A stretch of DNA of 64,000 bases, from positions 62,001-126,000 of the forward strand of contig JBFLXB010000001.1 in assembly GCA_040757335.1 (NCBI GenBank), read 5' to 3'. How positions within the stretch are numbered: position 1 is the stretch's first letter; each line of letters starts with the position of its first letter. The stretch comes from Nitrospirota bacterium (GTDB lineage: Bacteria; Nitrospirota; Nitrospiria; 2-01-FULL-66-17). Shown in pieces: positions 50,241 through 61,206 of this stretch. The position numbers were made by a program, and so were the translations under genes. The notes below the pieces were generated by a model. The model searched no databases and was not told the origin of the DNA. It saw only the letters and a program-made list of their open reading frames with translations.

Positions 50241-50645
50241 ATGCCCGAGAAGACCGTGGTAACCGAGAAGCGGAGGGTGTTGGTGGTGGGGAGCGCATCG
50301 TTGTTCGGGTGTGCGGTGGGTGGCTTGCTGGAAAGCAGGGGCGACGGGTTCGACGTGACATCGGTGAAGACGGTGGAGGCGGCGATCGAAACCGCGCCGA
50401 AGGTTCGGCCCGACGTGATCGTCTTCTGCCTGGACCGTGACGACGGGCGCAACGGCGACGCGCTGAATCGGTTACGGCTGATGGAATCCTTCCCCGCACG
50501 AATCATTCGATGCACCCTCGAAAGCAACCAACTGACAATCTACGACACGAAACGGATCACCGATGCCACGGCGGAGGACCTCCTTGCGGCGGTCACCCGC
50601 GGGAGCGACGAACCGGTCGACAACCGGAAGGGGGAGACACTATGA
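50241..50645 (+). CDS. Degenerate receiver-like protein coupled to the multicopper oxidase
   Basis: This encodes 134 residues from ATG 50241. RRVLVVGSASLFGCAVGGLL and RPDVIVFCLDRDDGRNGDAL follow the alternating beta-alpha order of response-regulator receivers. The acidic pair after the first strand is replaced by Gly-Ser, and no conserved lysine is evident, so phosphorylation as in CheY is doubtful. The C-terminus is charged (TRGSDEPVDNRKGETL) and there is no DNA-binding domain. The stop overlaps the ATG of the multicopper oxidase, so amounts of both proteins are linked. It is cytoplasmic, whereas the oxidase is exported. Confidence 0.6.
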   Translation: MPEKTVVTEKRRVLVVGSASLFGCAVGGLLESRGDGFDVTSVKTVEAAIETAPKVRPDVIVFCLDRDDGRNGDALNRLRLMESFPARIIRCTLESNQLTIYDTKRITDATAEDLLAAVTRGSDEPVDNRKGETL

Positions 50646-53600
50646 GTGCAAAGTGGTGGAAGGTGTTGGTGGGGCTCGCGGCGGGCGCCTGGTTATGGTC
50701 GGGCGGTCCGACCGCGGGATGGGCGGGTGAAGACCACGGATCGCATGGATCGGGAGGCGCCGAGATCGTGGTCGCGGACGCGCAGGAATTGCCCGCCTGG
50801 CAGCAGAAGTTCAAGGAACAGCTCGAACGCGAAGACGCGGCCGAGGGTCGGAACGGCACCCGCGACCAGTTGGAAGCGGCCATGAAGAAGCTCATGGCCG
50901 AAATCGCCAAGGGCACCGGCGACCACGCGTCCCACGTCTCGCAAGGCCCCTACAGCGATGCGGCTATGGCTCAGCAGATGGACAGGAGCTACTTTTTGGG
51001 TCCGGCCGCAGCAGGGGAGAGCGTAACGGCCGGAGGACGCTGCCCCAAGAACGTTCCGGTCAAGGAGTACGACGTTTCGGCGATCAACGTGGAGATCACG
51101 CTGAACCAGTGGCTGGATTACCACCCCGGGTACATGTACGTGTTGACCGAGAATGTCCCGAAGGTTCGGGCTGAAGAGAAAGCCAACGCGGAGGCCCGCA
51201 AGGCGGCGGGTTACAACCCGGGTGCCGTGAGCACCGGCCTCCAGACCGACATAATCCAGCCGATCGTGCTGCGGGGCAACCAAGGCGACTGCGTGGTGAT
51301 CACGCTGAAGAATGAACTCGATGGTGAAGACGTCGGACTCCATATTCACGGCTCCAGCATGATCATCAAGGCGACCGGGCTGGCGGCCACCGCCGCCAAC
51401 TCCGACGCCACGGTCCAGCCGGGAAAGAGTCAGACCTTCGAGTGGTATATCCGGCCTACCGAGCAGGAGGGCTCGCATATGCTCCACAGCCACGTCGGCC
51501 GGGAGCAGGCGAGCCTGGGGATGATCGGAGCGTTCATCGTCGAGCCCATGGGGTCACGCTATCTGGATCCGATCACGGGGAAAGAATCGAAGAGCGGCTG
51601 GCAGATGATGATCGAAGATCCCAATGCCCCCGATTTCCGGGAGTACGCGATCTTCTACCACGAAATCGGCGACGAATCCTTCCGCCCGCTGAACCGCCAG
51701 GGCGAAACGATTCCGCAGCGCGATCCGAACACCGACGCGTACCGGCCCTCGGCTCGCGCGCTCAACTATCGCAGCGAGCCGTTCGGCATCAATAACCTTG
51801 CGGTTCAGGAGAAGTATTTCCACTTCGAGGACGAGTCGATGTCGTACAGCTCCTACACCTTCGGCGATGTGCCGACGCCCATCCCGAGGGGATACCTGGG
51901 CGACCCGAACAAGTGGCGGCTGATCCATGGAGGCGGCGAGGTGTTCCACTCCCACCACCCTCACGGCGGGTCGATCCGCTGGCTGCGTCAGCCCAAGGCC
52001 GATGGGAAGGCGGACTTCCTGATGACGGCGGCTCAGAACGGCCCGGTGAAGTATCCGGAGGTCCGGACCACGTCCGACCGCGTCGATGTGGAAGTGATCG
52101 GTCCTTCGGAGGTGTTGGACCTTCAGACCGAGTGCGGGTGGGGTCTTTGCCAACAGGTGGCGGCGGACTATTTGTTCCACTGCCACGTCGCGCACCATTA
52201 CGTCGCGGGGATGTGGTCGTACGGGCGCGGCTACAACACGCTCCAGACCGGAAACTATCCATTCGGAAGCACCGACGTCATGCCGCCGCTGCAGGAACTG
52301 CCGGATCGCAAGGGGCGGATGAAGCCGGCGGTCACGTCGGATCAGTTGGTCGGCAAGACCATGGACTGGTACGACAAGAAATGGAACATCACCGCGAACA
52401 AGACCGACTTCTCCAAGCCCATTCCGGACGTGTCGATCAAGGACTGGGTCAAGATGTTGCTCCCGCCGGCTGGCCAGCCGGGCCACACCGCGGACGAGAA
52501 GGGCCAGATCGTCGCGTATGATGCGACGGTGTGGGACTGGACCTGGGACGGCAACCAAGCATTGGGGGAGGCTGAGGAAACCGGGAAGTTCGCCAGCCCC
52601 AAGTACAAGTCGCCCATGCCTGGGAAGCGGCCGCCGATTCTCTTCGACGCCAAGACAGGGAAACTTGCGTACCCGCACTTCAAGCCGCACTTCGGCAAAC
52701 GGGTGCCATTTGCCCGACACCACGGACCGGCTCCCTGGTTAGAGCCCGTCCACGTGGACAAAGCCACCGGATCGGTTGGGGACGAGCCGGGCGGTCTGGG
52801 CGTGGCCGGTGGAGAGACCAACCAGCCGGCTCGTCCGGGTGAACAAGGGAAATGGAGCCTGTGCCCGGAGAACGCGGGGCGAAAGCAGTACACGATCCAC
52901 TTCATCGAAACGCCGATCACCATGAACCAGGCCATCGGCAAACAGAAGGCGGTGGTGGATCAGCACGGGACGATTTATGTCCTGCACGAGGAGGAGAAGG
53001 CAGTTCGGGCCAACAGCGACCTCGCACGGCCGCTCGTCTATCGCGCCAACGTGTATGACTGCGTGGACGTGATCCTCAAGAGCGAGTGGGAGGACAACAA
53101 CACGACGAACTTCCAGATGTCGAAGATCAATATCCATCCCCACTTCATGCAATTCGACAACAACGCGAGCGACGGTGTGATCACGGGTTTTGCGTACGAG
53201 CAATCGGTGCGCCCCTTCACCCAGATGAAGAAGGCCGAGCACAAAGGGCTGCCGGTTCCGATGAACGCCGTCCTCGCGGAGAATGTGAAGGCGGGGGCCA
53301 CCAGCGTCAAAATCGAGATGCCGGAAGGGGCCACCAAGTTCCACGCCGGGACCGACATCATGATCGGGATGCACGAGGTGAAGACCTCTGAAGTCCGGTG
53401 GATCAAGGAGATCAAAGGCGACACGCTGGTCTTCGCCGAACCCTTGAAACATGCGCACAAGAAGGGGGAGGTTGCATCGGTCGAGTACGTCCGGTACCGG
53501 TACTGGGTGGATGCCGACTTGGGGACCGTGTTCTGGCACGACCACGCCCTCGGCGGAACCACCTGGCCGCACGGAGCCGTGGGGGGGCTCATCGTCGAGC

Positions 53601-55546
53601 CGGTGGGCGCCACGTATCATGACCCGAAGACCGGCAAAGAGATCCGGAGCGGTCCCATCGCCGATATTCATTCGACCGACCCGATCGGCTACGGCGTGAA
53701 CGGCAGTTTCCGGGAGATGGTGCAGTATCTGAACGACACGGTGCCGTATACCGCGCAGGTGGTGACCGCGGGCAATCCGCCGGGACAGACGATCCAGGCG
53801 GCCATCGACGCGGGTCAGGCATTGTTCTTCCAGATGCCGTATGACCTGGACCTGGTGTCGGTCCCCATGCTCAACGGCGGGACGCACACCACGGGCGGTG
53901 GGTTCTTCTTCAAGGCCGAGTCGATCGCGAAGCGGCTCAAGAACAACCCGGATGCGTCGAGGGTCTTTTCCACCAAGACGCACGGGATCGACCCGGGGAC
54001 GCCGCTGTTGCGGGCCTACCTGGGGGACACCGTGGTGTTTCGTCTGATGCACGTGATGATGAACGAGTCGCACACCTGGCATCTGGCGGGCCACGCATTC
54101 AGGACCGAGCGGTACGCCGAGAAGTCGGACTTCAAGAACGCGTGGCACGTCGGGATCGCGGAACGGTACGATCTGGTCACAAAGGCCGGGGGGCCGCAGC
54201 AGATGGCCGGCGACTACCTGCACTTCGACGGCCGTCCATCCCATCTGTCGGAAGGCAGTTGGGGCATCTTCCGCGTGCTCGACAAAGAAGTGCCGGATCT
54301 GAAGAAGCTGCCGGGGCGCGAGGAGATTCCGGCCTCCGCGAACTCGGTGTGCCCGTCGGATGCACCGGTCAAGACTTTCAACGTGATCGCGGCGGATCGG
54401 GCCTTGAAGTACAACACCAACGCGCCGGACGTGATCGAGGTGGATTTTGACCGCGTGTTGCAGGTCGCAAACCCGCAGGGCAAGATCTACATGCTCGAAG
54501 GGGAGAAAACGAAGGTGGCGGAGGGCGGTGCTCAGCCCATGCCGCTGACCCTGCACGTCAATGTAGGGGATTGCGTCAAGGTGAACCTGAAGAACGAGAT
54601 GAAGGCCAGCCGGGCGTCGTTCAGCGCCGACATGCTGGCATTCGATCCCAAGGAGTCCCAAGGCGTCAATGTGGGCAACAACCCCGGGGACCAGACCGTG
54701 GGCCCGGGCCAGAGCCGGACCTACACGTACTATGCGCCGCCGCAGTACGGGGAGACCGCTGCGCTGGTGTGGGACTGGGGGAACTTCATCAACAACGTCA
54801 GGGATGGGCTGTTCGGGGCCATCATCGTCGGGCCCAAGGGCTCCAAGTATCGGGATCCCAAGACCGGCGAGGACGTCTCGATGAAGAACGCCTGGCAGGT
54901 TGACGTGATCGTGGATCGGTCGATACCGGCGAATGCCAACCGGTCCGACTTCCGGGATGCCTCGCTCTTCTTCCAAGACGAGGACAACATCATCGGAACC
55001 GCGTTCATGCCGTACATTCAGCAGATCGCGGGACTGACCGGGGTGAACTACCGCGCCGAGCCCTGGACCTATCGGGAGGAGAACGGGTGCGAGCTGGGCA
55101 ACATGTTCACGCCGTGTGTGGCCGCGCAGTCCGATTTGGCCACGCCGACGATCATGGCGCACGCCGGCGACCCGGTTCGGATCCACGTGTTCGGCGCGTT
55201 CAACGAGCAGAACCAGGTGTTCAGTCTCGAAGGGCACGAGTGGCCCCTCAAGCCCAACATGGCAGGGGCCGACCTGATGAGTTCGAGCGAGTTCGGCTCG
55301 TCTCAAAATCTGGACGTGCTCCTGGTCGATGGGGCCGGCGGGCCGTTCCGCCTGCCGGGGGATTACTTGTGGCAAAATCATCGGATGCCCTATACCCAGG
55401 CCGGACAGTGGGGGTATCTGCGGGTACTGCCCGCAGGAGACCGGCGCGTGCTGCCGTTGAACAGCGGCGGACCCGGCGGTCGGACCGCGGAGCTGCCGCA
55501 GTCAGGTGATGCCGTGTCCGTCTCGCTGCTGGGGACGGGGAAGTAA
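50642..55546 (+). CDS. Giant exported multicopper oxidase with three cupredoxin-pair units
   Basis: This encodes 1,634 residues from ATG 50642, with AAGGGGGAG upstream and a signal peptide ending near PTAGWAGED (about 28). Unit 1 (about 190-540) has a complete ligand set: HIH (234/236), HSH (282/284), HSHHPH (436-441) and HCHVAHHYVAGM (513-524), the HCHxxxHxxxxM blue-copper motif. Unit 2 (about 800-1220) keeps HPH (832/834), HDH (966/968) and HTWHLAGH (1144-1151) but lacks the HCH cysteine. Unit 3 (about 1290-1630) has almost none, with WDW in place of an HxH. Each unit contains a DPKTGKE-like linker. Its size exceeds six-domain Mn or Fe oxidases. The substrate is unknown. Confidence 0.88.
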   Translation: MSAKWWKVLVGLAAGAWLWSGGPTAGWAGEDHGSHGSGGAEIVVADAQELPAWQQKFKEQLEREDAAEGRNGTRDQLEAAMKKLMAEIAKGTGDHASHVSQGPYSDAAMAQQMDRSYFLGPAAAGESVTAGGRCPKNVPVKEYDVSAINVEITLNQWLDYHPGYMYVLTENVPKVRAEEKANAEARKAAGYNPGAVSTGLQTDIIQPIVLRGNQGDCVVITLKNELDGEDVGLHIHGSSMIIKATGLAATAANSDATVQPGKSQTFEWYIRPTEQEGSHMLHSHVGREQASLGMIGAFIVEPMGSRYLDPITGKESKSGWQMMIEDPNAPDFREYAIFYHEIGDESFRPLNRQGETIPQRDPNTDAYRPSARALNYRSEPFGINNLAVQEKYFHFEDESMSYSSYTFGDVPTPIPRGYLGDPNKWRLIHGGGEVFHSHHPHGGSIRWLRQPKADGKADFLMTAAQNGPVKYPEVRTTSDRVDVEVIGPSEVLDLQTECGWGLCQQVAADYLFHCHVAHHYVAGMWSYGRGYNTLQTGNYPFGSTDVMPPLQELPDRKGRMKPAVTSDQLVGKTMDWYDKKWNITANKTDFSKPIPDVSIKDWVKMLLPPAGQPGHTADEKGQIVAYDATVWDWTWDGNQALGEAEETGKFASPKYKSPMPGKRPPILFDAKTGKLAYPHFKPHFGKRVPFARHHGPAPWLEPVHVDKATGSVGDEPGGLGVAGGETNQPARPGEQGKWSLCPENAGRKQYTIHFIETPITMNQAIGKQKAVVDQHGTIYVLHEEEKAVRANSDLARPLVYRANVYDCVDVILKSEWEDNNTTNFQMSKINIHPHFMQFDNNASDGVITGFAYEQSVRPFTQMKKAEHKGLPVPMNAVLAENVKAGATSVKIEMPEGATKFHAGTDIMIGMHEVKTSEVRWIKEIKGDTLVFAEPLKHAHKKGEVASVEYVRYRYWVDADLGTVFWHDHALGGTTWPHGAVGGLIVEPVGATYHDPKTGKEIRSGPIADIHSTDPIGYGVNGSFREMVQYLNDTVPYTAQVVTAGNPPGQTIQAAIDAGQALFFQMPYDLDLVSVPMLNGGTHTTGGGFFFKAESIAKRLKNNPDASRVFSTKTHGIDPGTPLLRAYLGDTVVFRLMHVMMNESHTWHLAGHAFRTERYAEKSDFKNAWHVGIAERYDLVTKAGGPQQMAGDYLHFDGRPSHLSEGSWGIFRVLDKEVPDLKKLPGREEIPASANSVCPSDAPVKTFNVIAADRALKYNTNAPDVIEVDFDRVLQVANPQGKIYMLEGEKTKVAEGGAQPMPLTLHVNVGDCVKVNLKNEMKASRASFSADMLAFDPKESQGVNVGNNPGDQTVGPGQSRTYTYYAPPQYGETAALVWDWGNFINNVRDGLFGAIIVGPKGSKYRDPKTGEDVSMKNAWQVDVIVDRSIPANANRSDFRDASLFFQDEDNIIGTAFMPYIQQIAGLTGVNYRAEPWTYREENGCELGNMFTPCVAAQSDLATPTIMAHAGDPVRIHVFGAFNEQNQVFSLEGHEWPLKPNMAGADLMSSSEFGSSQNLDVLLVDGAGGPFRLPGDYLWQNHRMPYTQAGQWGYLRVLPAGDRRVLPLNSGGPGGRTAELPQSGDAVSVSLLGTGK

Positions 55547-55627: not shown

Positions 55628-56563
55628 ATGTCTCGTCTTGTCGTGGCGGTCGCCGTCGGGATCGTTTTGGCGACGGGTGGACCGTCGCCGGTCTCCGCAG
55701 AATCGGTCTATGAAGAAATCGCCGTGAAGAACGGCGGAACCATCAGCGGGAAGATCACCCTGAAGGGGCCGGTCCCTGACCCGCGAGTGTTCCCGTTGGT
55801 GCTCTATCCCTTTGGGCCGTTCTGCAAGAAAATCTCGGACGGCAAAGGCCACATCCTGGTCGATGAGTTCATCGTGTCGCCGGACCGGGGGATGCAGGAC
55901 ACGATCGTGGCGGTGCAGCAGGTCAAGCGGGGAAAACCGTTTCCTCTGATCAAACAGGAACTGGAAGCGGTGGACTGCATGTTCCATCCCGCCGAGACCG
56001 CGGAGGACGAGCTGTTTGCGATCGATGCCCAGGGCAAGCTGCACCACGAACATCCCTTGGTCATGGTCCTGAGAAATCACCAACCGATCTGGGTGGTCAA
56101 CCGCGATCCGATCATTCACAACGGGCAAGTCTTCCAAAATGAGAAGGGCAACATCATTCTCAACTTTCCGCTCCCGATCGCCGAGGAGCCGCGCGGCGGC
56201 ATGCTCCACTTCGACGACGGGAAGCGCATTTCACAAATGATTTGCGGGATGCACGAATTCATGCAGGCGTGGGGGTTTGTGGTGGACAATCCCTACTACG
56301 CGAGAACCAAGAAAGACGGGAAGTTCGCGATCGACAATCTTCCACCCGGCACGTATCGTGTGGCGGCGTGGCATCCGCATCTCCCGATCGTCGAACAAGA
56401 CATCACGGTGCCGGCCAACGGCACGGCATCGTTCAACGTGGAATTCGACGGCGCGCAGGTCGTGCGTCCCGCGTACGAGAGCCAGGAACGATTCCGGATC
56501 GGACCCGAGGCGCTTCCTCATCAACATCTCGAAGAGTGTAGCCCGCCGTACTGCGAGGACTAG
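55628..56563 (+). CDS. Exported cupredoxin/carboxypeptidase-regulatory-like protein 1
   Basis: This encodes 311 residues. ATG 55628 has AAGGAGA upstream. A signal peptide ends near PVSAES (about 24). The cupredoxin-like part has His164 (PIIHNGQV) and Cys206-x2-His209-x2-Met212 (MICGMHEFMQAWG). This is the short amicyanin-type type 1 copper loop. It is followed by a carboxypeptidase-regulatory-like beta domain (KFAIDNLPPGTYRVAAWHPH). An insert with HHEHP near residue 140 and the His/Cys-rich tail PHQHLEECSPPYCED are special to this copy. It probably takes or gives electrons to the upstream oxidase. Repeat copy D follows its TAG. Confidence 0.78.
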   Translation: MSRLVVAVAVGIVLATGGPSPVSAESVYEEIAVKNGGTISGKITLKGPVPDPRVFPLVLYPFGPFCKKISDGKGHILVDEFIVSPDRGMQDTIVAVQQVKRGKPFPLIKQELEAVDCMFHPAETAEDELFAIDAQGKLHHEHPLVMVLRNHQPIWVVNRDPIIHNGQVFQNEKGNIILNFPLPIAEEPRGGMLHFDDGKRISQMICGMHEFMQAWGFVVDNPYYARTKKDGKFAIDNLPPGTYRVAAWHPHLPIVEQDITVPANGTASFNVEFDGAQVVRPAYESQERFRIGPEALPHQHLEECSPPYCED

Positions 56564-56705: not shown

Positions 56706-57590
56706 ATGCCTTCACGGCGTATGCCTTCGCTGGGGCTTATCGCGTGGGTGATCGTTGCTGGAGTTTGTGGCGTTCTTTTCGGAGTGAGAGCCGTGGGTTG
56801 GGCGTATGAAGAGGTCACGGTGACCTCGGGGGGCACGTTGAGGGGGAAGGTTTCATTGGCCGGAGCGGTTCCGCCCAGCCGGATTTTCCACATGGTGTTC
56901 TCCCCGAATATCACATTCTGTACCAGGATTTCCGATGGCAAAGGCAACCGGTTGCTCAAGGAGTTCGTGGTCGCTCAAGACGGCGGATTCCAGAATGTGG
57001 TCGTGGCCGTGGTGGGGGTGGAAAAGGGCAAACGATTCGATTACACGCCGGAGATCAGCCTTGAAAACTGCCGTGTCGGCCCGTTCGTCACGCCCGTTCG
57101 CAACCACCACCCCGTTGTGATCGTGAACAAAGACCCGGTGGTACACGATGTCCAGGCCTATACGATCAAGGATCCGTATGCGTTTGGAATGTTCAATAAG
57201 CCCATGCTTCCGGAGAGTACGGCCTCAAAAAAGATCGTCTTCAGAAAGGACCACTATCTCTTCAAGACCCAGTGCGGGGTGCACGACTTCATGCAGTCGT
57301 GGGGCATGGCCGTGGGCAACCCCTATTTTGCGGTCACCGGCCCGGACGGCACGTTTACGATTTCGGATCTCCCGCCGGGAACCTATGATGTCGTGGCCTG
57401 GCATCCCCATATGCGGGTGAGAGCGAAACAGGTCACGGTTGCGGCCAACGGCGAAGCGGACCTGAGCTTTGAGTTCGACTCGTCCGAAGTGGACATTCCG
57501 TTGCACGATCTGCAGACCGGCTACCGCCTCCAACCCGCGCTGGATCTCATCCCGCTGGAGCCGCCTTCGGTCGAGCTCCAGGGACCCTAA
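56706..57590 (+). CDS. Exported cupredoxin/carboxypeptidase-regulatory-like protein 2
   Basis: This encodes 294 residues from ATG 56706; ATG 56721 is also possible. The signal sequence is SLGLIAWVIVAGVCGVLFGV, with a cleavage site near GWAYE. Ligands His147 (VVHDVQA) and Cys190-x2-His193-x2-Met196 (TQCGVHDFMQSWG) are present, followed by TFTISDLPPGTYDVVAWHPH. It is a paralogue of the proteins at 55628 and 58192. It lacks the His/Cys tail of copy 1 and has a Phe/Met-rich stretch (YAFGMFNKPMLPES) before the copper loop. Ribosome binding is unclear because repeat D lies just upstream. Confidence 0.76.
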   Translation: MPSRRMPSLGLIAWVIVAGVCGVLFGVRAVGWAYEEVTVTSGGTLRGKVSLAGAVPPSRIFHMVFSPNITFCTRISDGKGNRLLKEFVVAQDGGFQNVVVAVVGVEKGKRFDYTPEISLENCRVGPFVTPVRNHHPVVIVNKDPVVHDVQAYTIKDPYAFGMFNKPMLPESTASKKIVFRKDHYLFKTQCGVHDFMQSWGMAVGNPYFAVTGPDGTFTISDLPPGTYDVVAWHPHMRVRAKQVTVAANGEADLSFEFDSSEVDIPLHDLQTGYRLQPALDLIPLEPPSVELQGP

Positions 57591-57710: not shown

Positions 57711-58187
57711 ATGATCGGCATGGCCCAGAAACGAGACATTGCCGACATCATGCAGTCCTTGCGGCGGATCTTTAAGGCGATCCAGCAGTACTCCGAAGAC
57801 GTGTTTAAGGAGTTCGGGGTGACCGGCCCGCAGCTCTGGGCCTTGCGGACGATCTACACGCAGGGCCCGCTCTCGATGGGCGAGTTGAGCCGGAGCATGT
57901 ACCTGCACATCAGTACGGCCTCGGGCGTCGTGGATCGGTTGGAGCGCAGGGGGTACGTGGAGCGCAACCGAGAGGACTCGGACCGGCGCGTGGTCAAGAT
58001 CAGCCTCACGTCCGCGGGGAAACGGCTGGTGCAACGGGGTCCGGAGGCGGCTCAAGGGAAGTTGCTGCATGGGCTTGAAAGTCTGTCGTCGGCTGAGGTC
58101 CGAGTCATCCGTTCATCGCTGGAACGCGTGGTTCGGTTGATGGAGATTCAGGATATGAGAGCAACCTTCTTTTTTAGCGAGGAGTAA
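57711..58187 (+). CDS. MarR-family transcriptional regulator
   Basis: This encodes 158 residues from ATG 57711; ATG 57720 is equally possible. A winged helix is clear: LWALRTIYTQGPLSMGELSR, then MYLHISTASGVVDRLERRGYVERNR and DSDRRVVKISLTSAGKRLV, the MarR wing with its DxRxxxxxLT motif. N- and C-terminal helices would form the dimer. It is four bases from the cupredoxin 3 gene and separated from it by GAGGAG, so they are one transcript. I infer that it controls part of the copper region. The inducer is unknown; no clear metal or thiol sensor pattern is seen. Confidence 0.88.
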   Translation: MIGMAQKRDIADIMQSLRRIFKAIQQYSEDVFKEFGVTGPQLWALRTIYTQGPLSMGELSRSMYLHISTASGVVDRLERRGYVERNREDSDRRVVKISLTSAGKRLVQRGPEAAQGKLLHGLESLSSAEVRVIRSSLERVVRLMEIQDMRATFFFSEE

Positions 58188-58191
58188 TGGC

Positions 58192-59028
58192 ATGACGAAC
58201 GGTGCGGTGAATCGTGCGGTTACGGTGACGGTGGGTGTCGCGCTACTGGCGACCCTCGGGTTCGGTGAGGCGCCACCGGCCCTTGCCTACGAGGAAGTCC
58301 AGGTTCAGAACGCGGGAACGTTGACGGGGAAGGCATGGTTGGACGGACCGATTCCTGAGCCGCGCGTTTTTCCGGTTGCGCTCTATCCCTTCGGGCCGTT
58401 CTGCAACAAGAATGAGCGCATTGCGGACGGCAAGGGAAACATCCTGGTCCAAGAGTTCGAAGTAGGCGCCGAGCATGGATTAAAGGACGTGGTGGTGGCG
58501 GTGCAGAGGGTGAAGCGAGGGAAGCCGTTCCCTCCCATCGTGGCTGAAATCGTGTCGCGAGATTGCGAGTTCATCCCGTTTGTGAGCGTCGTCCGGAACC
58601 ACGGACAGTTCAGGATGACGAACGAGGACCCCGTCATTCACAATGCGCAACTCTACCAAAGCGAGAAGGGGAATCTGCGGTTGACGGTGCCGAATCCGCC
58701 GAATTCGGCGGGGATGTTCCCCATCGAGTTCGAAAGGAAATACCGAATCTACCAAATGATCTGCGGAATGCACGAGTTCATGCAGACCTGGGGTTACGCG
58801 GTGGACAATCCGTACTATGCGCTCACGGACGAGAACGGCGCATTTACGATCGACGGCCTGCCTCCGGGCACCTACACCGTCACGGCGTGGCGGCCGCACT
58901 TTCCCCCAATGGAACGACGGGTGACCATCGCGTCCTCGGGGACGGAGCGCATCGAGTTTTCGTTCGATGCAGCGCTCGTGAAGCGACCCCTGTATGAAAC
59001 GCAGGAGCGCTTCCGGATTCAGCGTTGA
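58192..59028 (+). CDS. Exported cupredoxin/carboxypeptidase-regulatory-like protein 3
   Basis: This encodes 278 residues with GAGGAG upstream of ATG 58192. A signal peptide ends near PALAYE (about 32). His150 (VIHNAQL) and Cys191-x2-His194-x2-Met197 (MICGMHEFMQTWG) form the predicted blue-copper site. FTIDGLPPGTYTVTAWRPHF begins the second domain. FPVALYPFGPFCNKNERIAD is shared with copy 1, so copies 1 and 3 are the closest pair. It lacks the inserted HHEHP loop and the His/Cys tail. A MarR gene is directly upstream. Confidence 0.78.
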   Translation: MTNGAVNRAVTVTVGVALLATLGFGEAPPALAYEEVQVQNAGTLTGKAWLDGPIPEPRVFPVALYPFGPFCNKNERIADGKGNILVQEFEVGAEHGLKDVVVAVQRVKRGKPFPPIVAEIVSRDCEFIPFVSVVRNHGQFRMTNEDPVIHNAQLYQSEKGNLRLTVPNPPNSAGMFPIEFERKYRIYQMICGMHEFMQTWGYAVDNPYYALTDENGAFTIDGLPPGTYTVTAWRPHFPPMERRVTIASSGTERIEFSFDAALVKRPLYETQERFRIQR

Positions 59029-59078: not shown

Positions 59079-60095
59079 TTACGAGCCGGGGAGCTTTTCC
59101 GCGTCCCTCATGAGTCCGGCGACGAGGGACGCCGCCTCGCGCTCGAGAACCGCTTCAGTCGCGGACGCGGTCCCAATGCCTTGGATCTGTTTGCGTAGAG
59201 CATCCAACCGGCGTTCATGCTCGGCCGCCCTGGCCTTTCCAAGCACTTCCGCGATCGCGTCTCGGAGGCCGGACTCGTTGTACAGTCTCGACTGAACACT
59301 CATCACTCTCGACGTTGCCGCGGTGATGCTCCCGTTCTTCCAATGACCGATGGCGCGATCCAGTTCGGTGCGGACCTGTTCCACCACTGAGATCCAGTCC
59401 CGATCCGTGGTTTCGGTGAGATCGGTTCCAGCCGGAGCCTTCGCTGTGAACCGGAGATCAACGACCTGTCTTCCCATGTCCAAGTCCATATCCACCGCTC
59501 CTCGATCCCGTTCCTCGGCGGTCAGTCGAGGATGCCAGGCTTCGAGTCGGTAATGGCCGGGCGGCACGTTCGGGATTTCGAACCGTCCGAGCTTGTCAGC
59601 CACGGCGAAATAGGGCGACGGGGCGACGATGATCAGTCCCCGCATGCTCTGGTGGGTGCGGCACCGGATGGGCACGGCCCCGGGGTTCTTCAGGGTCACC
59701 TCCTTGACCGTGCCGGGAAGATGCGCGCCGGTGTCAAAGCGATTTTCAGCGGCACGTGAGTGGATGTTGTGGATCTCGTCGTCATGATTCTCGAATCGAA
59801 TCGTCGCCCCTGCGGGAACGACGAGGAAATCCGGCTCGAACCGGAGCTTCTCCTGCCGAATCGTGTGTGGAGCGGACGAGGGGGCAAAGGAGAGGCCAGG
59901 CGGCGGCTGAAGGAACACCACGGCGCCGTCGGCCGGTTCCGAATTGAACAGGACGCGGCCGGTCACCCCATTGCCGGTCGTTCCACCGGCAGTGTGGGGG
60001 AAGAACGAGATGGACAACTGGAGGACCGCGAGACAGGCCGCAAGGTCGCGACACGGCTTCGCGACCTGCCACCGATCCGTTCCGGAATTCCTCAC
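59079..60095 (-). CDS. Exported cupredoxin/carboxypeptidase-regulatory-like protein 4 (divergent)
   Basis: This encodes 338 residues. GTG 60095 is the only start that leaves the signal sequence (LAACLAVLQLSISFFPHTAG) intact. There is an N-terminal copper domain: FENHDDEIHNIHS (His104, His109) and IRCRTHQSM (Cys145-x2-His148-x2-Met151). The second domain carries GRFEIPNVPPGHYRLEAWHP. The C-terminal 110 residues are a helical region (RTELDRAIGHWKNGSI and AEHERRLDALRKQIQGIG) absent from copies 1-3. No Shine-Dalgarno is present; a promoter ends seven bases upstream, so translation may be leaderless. It converges with copy 3. Confidence 0.75.
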   Translation of the reverse strand: MRNSGTDRWQVAKPCRDLAACLAVLQLSISFFPHTAGGTTGNGVTGRVLFNSEPADGAVVFLQPPPGLSFAPSSAPHTIRQEKLRFEPDFLVVPAGATIRFENHDDEIHNIHSRAAENRFDTGAHLPGTVKEVTLKNPGAVPIRCRTHQSMRGLIIVAPSPYFAVADKLGRFEIPNVPPGHYRLEAWHPRLTAEERDRGAVDMDLDMGRQVVDLRFTAKAPAGTDLTETTDRDWISVVEQVRTELDRAIGHWKNGSITAATSRVMSVQSRLYNESGLRDAIAEVLGKARAAEHERRLDALRKQIQGIGTASATEAVLEREAASLVAGLMRDAEKLPGS

Positions 60096-60101
60096 GCCGC
60101 G

Positions 60102-60131
60102 ATCATAACAAGACGCGCGCGAGAGCGACAA
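60102..60131 (-). promoter_or_regulatory. Promoter for leaderless cupredoxin 4 transcript
   Basis: On the minus strand TTGTCG (60131-60126) and TATGAT (60107-60102) lie 18 bases apart. Only six bases (CGCGGC) separate the -10 box from the GTG at 60095, so the transcript would begin at or next to the start codon. Confidence 0.6.
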
Positions 60132-60154
60132 GATGCTGGTTGTGTTTGAGACGG

Positions 60155-60176
60155 CGCGGATGATAACGTATCCGCG
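60155..60176. promoter_or_regulatory. Inverted repeat upstream of TPR gene
   Basis: CGCGGAT (60155-60161) and ATCCGCG (60170-60176) form a perfect 7-bp dyad with an 8-base gap, between the two divergent genes and 22 bases before the GTG of the TPR gene. It could be an operator or a leader hairpin. Confidence 0.35.
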
Positions 60177-60198
60177 TCTTGGGAAGGAGTGAACCCCC

Positions 60199-61206
60199 GT
60201 GTCGACCACGAATGTGTTGAGGGCATTGGTTGCGCTGACCATGGTGTTGTGTGTGTCGGGTGTGTCGGCCGGAGCGACGTCGGAGGAGGTGGCTCAGGCC
60301 TACTTCGACGAAGGAAAGGAACTCAACAAGCAACGACGTTTCGACGAGGCGTTGGCGAAATTCACCCTGGCTGTTCAGGCGAGCCCCGAAACCCACAGAT
60401 ATCATCAAGCGCTCTTCATGACGTACATGGCGTTGCGCCGCGGCCTGGCGGCAATCGACTTCTACAAGCAGATGGCTCGCGAGCACCCCGACAGCCCGAC
60501 CGTTCGCTACTGGCTGGGGCGGCTCTACCTGCAGAGCCAGGCGCTCGACGACGCGGTGCGCGAATTCCAAACCGCCGGCAGGCTGGCGCCCAACGATGAA
60601 CATGCCTGGATCTCCTTAGGGCACACCTACATTCGCCAGGGGAAAGACGCGGAAGCGATGGCTGCGTATCAACGAGCCAATAAGCTGTCGCCGAACATCG
60701 CCGTGGTTCACGCCGGCCTGGGGAAGCTGTATTTGAAGCGCGGCGACTACCCGAAGGCGCAGCGCGAGCTTGAGGAGGCGTTGCGGCTTGACGCGGCGCT
60801 CACCGAAGCGCGGTTCGATCTCAGCCTGATCTACGAGAAGCAGGGCGAGACCATCAAAGCGGTCAAAGAATGGCAGCGGATCCTCGAAGACGATCCCAAC
60901 GAGACCTCGGCTCGAGAGCGCCTGGCAAGGACATTTTTCGAAAAGCAACTCTATGAAGACGCCGTGCGGGAGTACTCCACGCTGTCGCAGGTCCGCCAAG
61001 CTTCCCCCGAGGTGTTCCTTGCGCTGGGCGAGGCCCAGGTCATGTTGGCCACCTCCCTCACCGACGCCGCGGAAAAGAGTCAACTGACGAATTTGGCGAT
61101 CGAGAATTTTCAACGAACACTGGAACTCGATCCCGGGAATGCGCAGGCCCGGAAATACCTCGATCTCTTGCGACCGACGGATGCGCCGGCCCAGGTCCCG
61201 CAATGA
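60199..61206 (+). CDS. Exported tetratricopeptide-repeat protein
   Basis: This encodes 335 residues from GTG 60199, with GGAAGGAG upstream. A signal peptide (LRALVALTMVLCVSGVSAGA) ends near residue 25. About seven TPR units follow, with the usual A-x3-Y/F-x8-A-x3-L/F pattern, for example AHISLGHTYIRQGKDAEAM-like and EARFDLSLIYEKQGETIKAV. TPR proteins assemble complexes. Placement beside the cupredoxin genes suggests a periplasmic scaffold for the copper system, which is inference. The stop overlaps the next ATG. Confidence 0.82.
   Translation: MSTTNVLRALVALTMVLCVSGVSAGATSEEVAQAYFDEGKELNKQRRFDEALAKFTLAVQASPETHRYHQALFMTYMALRRGLAAIDFYKQMAREHPDSPTVRYWLGRLYLQSQALDDAVREFQTAGRLAPNDEHAWISLGHTYIRQGKDAEAMAAYQRANKLSPNIAVVHAGLGKLYLKRGDYPKAQRELEEALRLDAALTEARFDLSLIYEKQGETIKAVKEWQRILEDDPNETSARERLARTFFEKQLYEDAVREYSTLSQVRQASPEVFLALGEAQVMLATSLTDAAEKSQLTNLAIENFQRTLELDPGNAQARKYLDLLRPTDAPAQVPQ

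Follow-up and report, generated by a model that had tools for sequence, protein, structure and literature searches.

An MnxG-like six-domain multicopper oxidase of a Nitrospirota bacterium with a predicted oxygen-reducing centre between domains 2 and 3

RESULTS

An oxidase gene followed by three predicted blue-copper proteins

In the window (the whole stretch of 64,000 nucleotides that was analysed), a gene for a large multicopper oxidase is followed on the same strand by three paralogous genes for predicted blue-copper proteins (Table 1). An alternative longer frame for the oxidase begins at 50510, and the ATG at 50642 comes after a GGGGGAGA stretch. Pfam returned both Cu-oxidase_3 and Cu-oxidase_2 matches, and the best solved relative was MnxG (9bxa), the Mn(II) oxidase of Bacillus sp. 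PL-12, with E = 4.8e-100 for the single sequence and E = 5.2e-198 for a profile of 24 relatives; the next PDB matches, to two-domain laccases and to coagulation factors V/VIII, were far weaker. Scores against the laccase and CopA models lay far under their cut-offs, and the NCBIfam MnxG equivalog (NF041487) gave 91.8 bits against a curated cut-off of 3100. Judged by these scores, the oxidase is assigned to the MnxG superfamily but not to the MnxG equivalogs.

A small receiver-like protein of 134 aa (50241-50645, + strand), which had no Pfam hit, overlaps the oxidase start codon (ATGA), and in several of the closest relatives (L009, L035, L027, L010 and L013) a homologue of it immediately precedes the oxidase.

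Table 1. Coordinates, in the window, of the oxidase gene, its domains and ligand motifs, and the downstream genes.
Feature	Position	Strand	Evidence or remark
Six-domain multicopper oxidase gene, 1634 aa, signal-like N-terminus	50642..55546	+	Pfam Cu-oxidase_3 and _2; PDB 9bxa
D1, odd-type cupredoxin domain, unit 1, residues ~130-335	51029..51646	+	His pairs H234/H236 and H282/H284, complete here
D2, even-type cupredoxin domain, unit 1, residues ~336-560	51647..52321	+	ligands invariant 118/118
HxxHxH ligand motif of D2 (H436, H439, H441)	51947..51964	+	118-sequence alignment
HCHxxxHxxxxM motif of D2 (H513-M524)	52178..52213	+	118-sequence alignment
D3, odd-type cupredoxin domain, unit 2, residues ~735-1030	52844..53731	+	ligands invariant 118/118
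First HxH of D3 (H832, H834)	53135..53143	+	118-sequence alignment
Second HxH of D3 (H966, H968)	53537..53545	+	118-sequence alignment
D4, even-type domain, unit 2, residues ~1031-1225	53732..54316	+	hhalign mapping
D5, odd-type domain, unit 3, residues ~1228-1420	54323..54901	+	hhalign mapping
D6, even-type domain, unit 3, residues ~1421-1610	54902..55471	+	hhalign mapping
H1580 of D6, which may bind metal at a second site that faces D1	55379..55381	+	aligns with H515; co-occurrence
Downstream predicted blue-copper protein, cupredoxin (CxxHxxM loop) and CarboxypepD_reg	55628..56563	+	AF2, Foldseek, PF13620
Second paralogous cupredoxin-CarboxypepD_reg protein (CGVHDFM)	56721..57590	+	
Third paralogous cupredoxin-CarboxypepD_reg protein (CGMHEFM)	58192..59028	+	

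The chain repeats a pair of cupredoxin domains three times

Aligned with hhalign, all three pairs of units in the oxidase matched with probability 100 (E from 1.8e-40 to 2.6e-52), which bears out the original prediction that the chain consists of three homologous units. At the level of domains, odd matched odd (D1/D3/D5, probability 99.6 to 100) and even matched even (D2/D4/D6, 99.0 to 99.8), and hhalign found nothing significant between odd and even domains of the oxidase. By homology, each unit is a predicted pair of one odd-type and one even-type cupredoxin domain, giving D1 to D6 in total. The recurring DPxTGKE-type segment that had also been noted occurs as DPxTGK/E once per unit (residues 309, 994 and 1405), with a partial copy, DAKTGK, in the linker at residue 669. 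Shuffle tests ruled out chance as the source of the motifs: eight HxH motifs were observed against 1.9 expected (P about 0.0008) and HCHx3Hx4M arose in 0 of 5000 shuffles.

The earlier inventory of ligands was mostly right. Unit 1 carries HIH, HSH, HSHHPH and HCHxxxHxxxxM, as described. Unit 2 does lack HCH, but among the three HxH motifs credited to it the HAH at residue 937 does not align as a cupredoxin motif and is absent from many orthologues. Unit 3 indeed has WDW where the second HxH would be, whereas the statement that it has no cysteine did not hold: C1237, C1311, C1483 and C1492 are present, none of them at a type 1 position. The view that there is only one type 1 copper, with ligand decay in the other units, agrees with both the alignment and the hhalign mapping.

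The predicted type 1 copper ligands lie in D2 (H436, C514, H519 and M524), together with one half of the predicted trinuclear ligands (H439, H441, H513 and H515), and in the comparison of our profile with 9bxa this domain aligned with HVFHYH and HCHLYPAFGIGM of MnxG. The other predicted half is found in D3 (H832, H834, H966 and H968), where HIH and HDH of MnxG align. Mapping by hhalign showed that at the 4/5 interface one of the eight trinuclear positions is kept (H1147 of D4), together with two type 1-like histidines without a cysteine (H1144 and H1201, also of D4), and that D5 has no histidine ligands, S1328/D1330 and W1377/W1379 standing at the ligand positions. At the place of the type 1 cysteine, D4 and D6 have D or N, and C514 of D2 is invariant.

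We also observed that D3 carries about 85 extra residues separating its two HxH motifs (residues ~860-945, window about 53219-53476); this insert is present in the class profile and appears as a gap in the MnxG alignment. Flanked by the two trinuclear half-site motifs, this insert might shape access to the site.

Conservation places the predicted trinuclear centre at D2/D3

We read the ligand positions off successive alignments of 49, 89 and 118 sequences; the last spanned the class, other Nitrospirota classes, and homologues carried on plasmids in Streptomyces, Priestia and haloarchaea. The 12 ligands of D2 (HHHHCHHM) and D3 (HHHH), comprising ten histidines, one cysteine and one methionine, were identical in 118 of 118 sequences, and the histidine pairs of D1 were broken in 87 and complete in 31. 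Of the 56 histidines in the oxidase, 12 were invariant in 89 sequences, namely the ten D2/D3 ligands, H340 and H1532. MnxG itself had the D2 and D3 motifs and incomplete D1 pairs in the alignment with 9bxa. Because the histidines of D2 and D3 are invariant while the D1 pairs are so often broken, the centre appears to be common to units 1 and 2.

The original prediction had instead confined type 1, 2 and 3 copper to unit 1 (D1 and D2), and had cast units 2 and 3 as structural, substrate-binding or electron-relay units. Unit 1 of the present sequence does contain all the canonical motifs, and its D1 motif scores as Cu-oxidase_3; however, the D1 histidines are absent in most relatives that carry every D2 ligand, and the D3 histidines are absent in 0 of 118. 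Moreover, two-domain laccases and ceruloplasmin form their trinuclear site between neighbouring domain pairs and not within a pair. We consider a centre built from unit 1 alone to be very improbable; the misplacement arose because the units had not been resolved into domain pairs. Ligands of unit 2 in the same centre as those of unit 1 are what homology and conservation, rather than a structural model, point to.

Alignment, conservation and the published scheme thus all place the predicted trinuclear centre between units 1 and 2, with eight invariant histidines drawn from D2 and D3. For bacterial six-domain oxidases, a paper of 2013 had already located the trinuclear site at the 2/3 domain interface, and it also gives the domain scheme (PMC3600357). 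Since D3 would supply four of the trinuclear histidines, unit 2 is better read as half of the catalytic centre than as a structural leftover, a substrate-binding unit or a relay. An AF2 model of residues 125-1225, made from a 16-sequence alignment, had a mean pLDDT of 40.6 with D2 and D4 unfolded, and was not used for the placement.

Four further plasmid homologues were read separately, outside the 118. Those of Nonomuraea and Hymenobacter agreed fully at D2 and D3, and in that of Rubrobacter, which is split over two annotated CDS, F replaces the axial Met. In the homologue on the Pseudonocardia plasmid pBCI2-1 (L118 2537-6307), the D2 HCH and a D3 histidine have been lost jointly, the outcome expected of residues that serve a single site; this six-domain homologue is apparently an inactive oxidase.

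From established multicopper oxidase chemistry, we infer that substrate electrons would enter one at a time at the type 1 copper of D2 and pass via the HCH segment to the trinuclear cluster, formed at the D2/D3 interface by the four histidines of each domain named above, where O2 would be reduced to water. D4, D5 and D6 would be mainly structural and would complete the six-domain ring. Overall, the protein is very probably exported and belongs with the bacterial MnxG-like six-domain multicopper oxidases, with a single O2-reducing centre at D2/D3. Enzymes of this kind are already known, and the assignment to them is well supported.

A candidate second metal site between D6 and D1

The 6/1 interface keeps five trinuclear positions, H234, H236, H282 and H284 of D1 and H1580 of D6; the last is the equivalent of H515 and the only histidine at a trinuclear position of D6, which has E1530 at the place of H441. 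The present oxidase is among the 31 sequences in which all four D1 histidines are intact. Where the D6 position could be scored, H1580 was present in 30 of 30 sequences that have an intact D1 and in 0 of 86 in which D1 is broken. On a tree built without those columns, the joint losses of the D1 histidines and H1580 formed two independent events, both within the class: one in a large clade in which H284 is replaced by Y, F or W, the other in a clade that lacks H234 and H236 and retains H284. A third lineage, L144 (D1 RHQV), was unscorable, as its contig ends without letters at the D6 position. Two events fall short of proof, but the pattern suggests that the D1 histidines act jointly with H1580, in the simplest case as a metal site. 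D1330 of D5, a candidate for following the same pattern, was dropped since it is also D in broken-D1 sequences.

As a supplement to the D2/D3 centre, one might therefore imagine a second interdomain metal site at D6/D1, made up of H234, H236, H282, H284, H1580 and perhaps E1530, which could possibly bind a substrate metal or a structural metal. The strict co-occurrence, the two joint losses and the alignment of H1580 with a trinuclear ligand are consistent with such a site, but the losses amount to just two independent events in one class, E1530 departs from the pattern, and D6 has no type 1 cysteine, so that we regard it as a tentative and rather unlikely proposal. Put in terms of lineages, it is similarly speculative that the one around Ca. 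Manganitrophus keeps, at the place where ceruloplasmin has its trinuclear centre, a second metal site of about five histidines and a carboxylate, without type 1 copper. Such a site might hold Mn or another substrate metal, and other lineages of the class would have lost it on two or more occasions. Were the site real, a lost oxygen-reducing site would have been kept for metal binding, and it would be a testable feature that sets Manganitrophus-type enzymes apart from the rest. The D1/D6 histidines are the sole part of the present analysis for which our search of the open papers found no description.

Cupredoxin genes are linked to the oxidase

The three downstream paralogues are exported proteins in which an amicyanin-like CxxHxxM loop is followed by a CarboxypepD_reg domain. 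Their cupredoxin part was not clearly identified by Pfam or PDB sequence profiles but by fold comparison: an AF2 model of the first paralogue had a mean pLDDT of 86.7, and Foldseek matched it to amicyanin, pseudoazurin and Cupredoxin_1 with E around 1e-4 to 1e-3, probability 1.00 and TM-scores by target of up to 0.74. Its predicted type 1 ligand set (H137, C179, H182 and M185) was invariant in alignment A4. On the strength of the modelled fold, we predict the downstream proteins to be blue-copper proteins.

A cupredoxin-CarboxypepD_reg gene starts on the same strand within 1500 bp downstream, and nearly always within 250 bp, in 37 of the 42 distinct oxidase genes that had at least 500 bp of downstream sequence; the remaining five copies, including the L036 paralogue of the source genome, have no cupredoxin neighbour within 1500 bp. 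These conserved neighbours are plausible redox partners of the oxidase.

Within the cupredoxin cluster, a MarR-family gene (57711-58187, + strand) is a possible local regulator. On the opposite strand, at 59079-60242, is one more cupredoxin, which belongs to the Cupredoxin_1 / plastocyanin family and also has a CarboxypepD_reg-like domain.

A core gene of the class

The oxidase had a match in 244 of 247 genomes of the same class, most of them with at least two (the scoring took in two candidates per genome), and the source genome has three copies; the oxidase is a core gene of its class. Named relatives are Nitrospirota MAGs, including Ca. Manganitrophus (L011 and L014) and Ca. Troglogloeales. 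The "two novel MCOs" of each Manganitrophaceae genome (PMC9040806) and the MnxG-like multicopper protein of Nitrospina and Ca. N. defluvii (PMC3578206) probably belong to the same family, to judge by their descriptions. A gene this close to universal, in a class that holds both nitrifiers and Ca. Manganitrophus, probably serves a common need of the class. The nitrite oxidoreductase marker PF14711 (NarH C-terminal) gave 0 matches in the source genome, and also 0 in six comparison relatives, so that the marker does not discriminate here.

DISCUSSION

The arrangement that we describe is that of the bacterial six-domain multicopper blue proteins, which, in the accessible part of PMC3600357, have a trinuclear site at 2/3, a mononuclear site in domain 2 only and residual ligands at 1/6: the alignment of our oxidase likewise shows three cupredoxin pairs, type 1 ligands in domain 2 only, and trinuclear ligands from domains 2 and 3. 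Unlike those proteins, it has a complete D1 histidine set and a matching D6 histidine, of which that part of the paper makes no mention. MnxG shares with it the six domains in three pairs, the type 1 copper of D2, and the histidine ligands in D2 and D3, but is distant in sequence; compared with MnxG, the oxidase has the D3 insert, a long D2-D3 linker, an N-terminal extension and complete D1 histidines.

Ceruloplasmin and hephaestin also have six cupredoxin domains in three pairs, with their trinuclear centre at 1/6 and type 1 copper in domains 2, 4 and 6. The oxidase, by contrast, has a single predicted type 1 site and its predicted cluster at 2/3, and its D6 shows neither HCH nor HxxHxH. The original prediction was correct that the location differs from that in ceruloplasmin-like enzymes, although the reason it gave was wrong and the point had already been published. 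Each unit resembles one subunit of the two-domain (small) laccases, as the PDB matches indicate, so that by analogy the oxidase would be a pseudo-trimer of such subunits, differing in that its units form one chain and that only one of the three centres is intact. Three-domain laccases, with about 500 aa and ligands in the first and third domains, are a different case from a protein of six domains and 1634 aa.

What the enzyme oxidises can be approached from its relatives and its neighbours. Mn(II) is a possible electron donor, a candidate by relationship to MnxG only. Oxidation of Mn(II), feeding lithotrophy or making superoxide-scavenging Mn(III), would fit with a Mn oxidase as the closest solved relative, with the occurrence of relatives in Ca. 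Manganitrophus, and with the nitrifier protein of Nitrospina and Ca. Nitrospira defluvii (PMC3578206), a periplasmic MnxG-similar oxidase that is clustered with copper- or haem-based carriers and proposed to make Mn(III) as a defence against reactive oxygen. Yet the equivalog score is far too low, the family is near-universal in a class mostly without known Mn oxidation, and in PMC9040806 the preferred candidates for Mn(II) oxidation by Manganitrophaceae are Cyc2 and PCC_1; we regard this role as doubtful. Its spread across the class speaks for a broader role, such as the oxidation of the neighbouring cupredoxins or of periplasmic metal ions. Such an enzyme could be a soluble periplasmic O2-reducing branch fed by cupredoxins, or could oxidise Cu(I)/Fe(II), acting as an electron sink or metal detoxifier. 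The operon-like linkage to cupredoxin genes and a distribution independent of Mn metabolism make this a tenable, though far from assured, reading, against which stand the five copies that lack a cupredoxin neighbour.

Of the two other copies in the source genome, one (L036 8216-13036, on G000:C1, about 284 kb), about 72% identical to the present oxidase, sits between ilvD-like and ABC transporter genes. The third paralogue has upstream of it, on its own strand (L037 13340-15286, - strand), another CarboxypepD_reg protein and a sulfatase-modifying-factor-like (FGE-sulfatase) protein.
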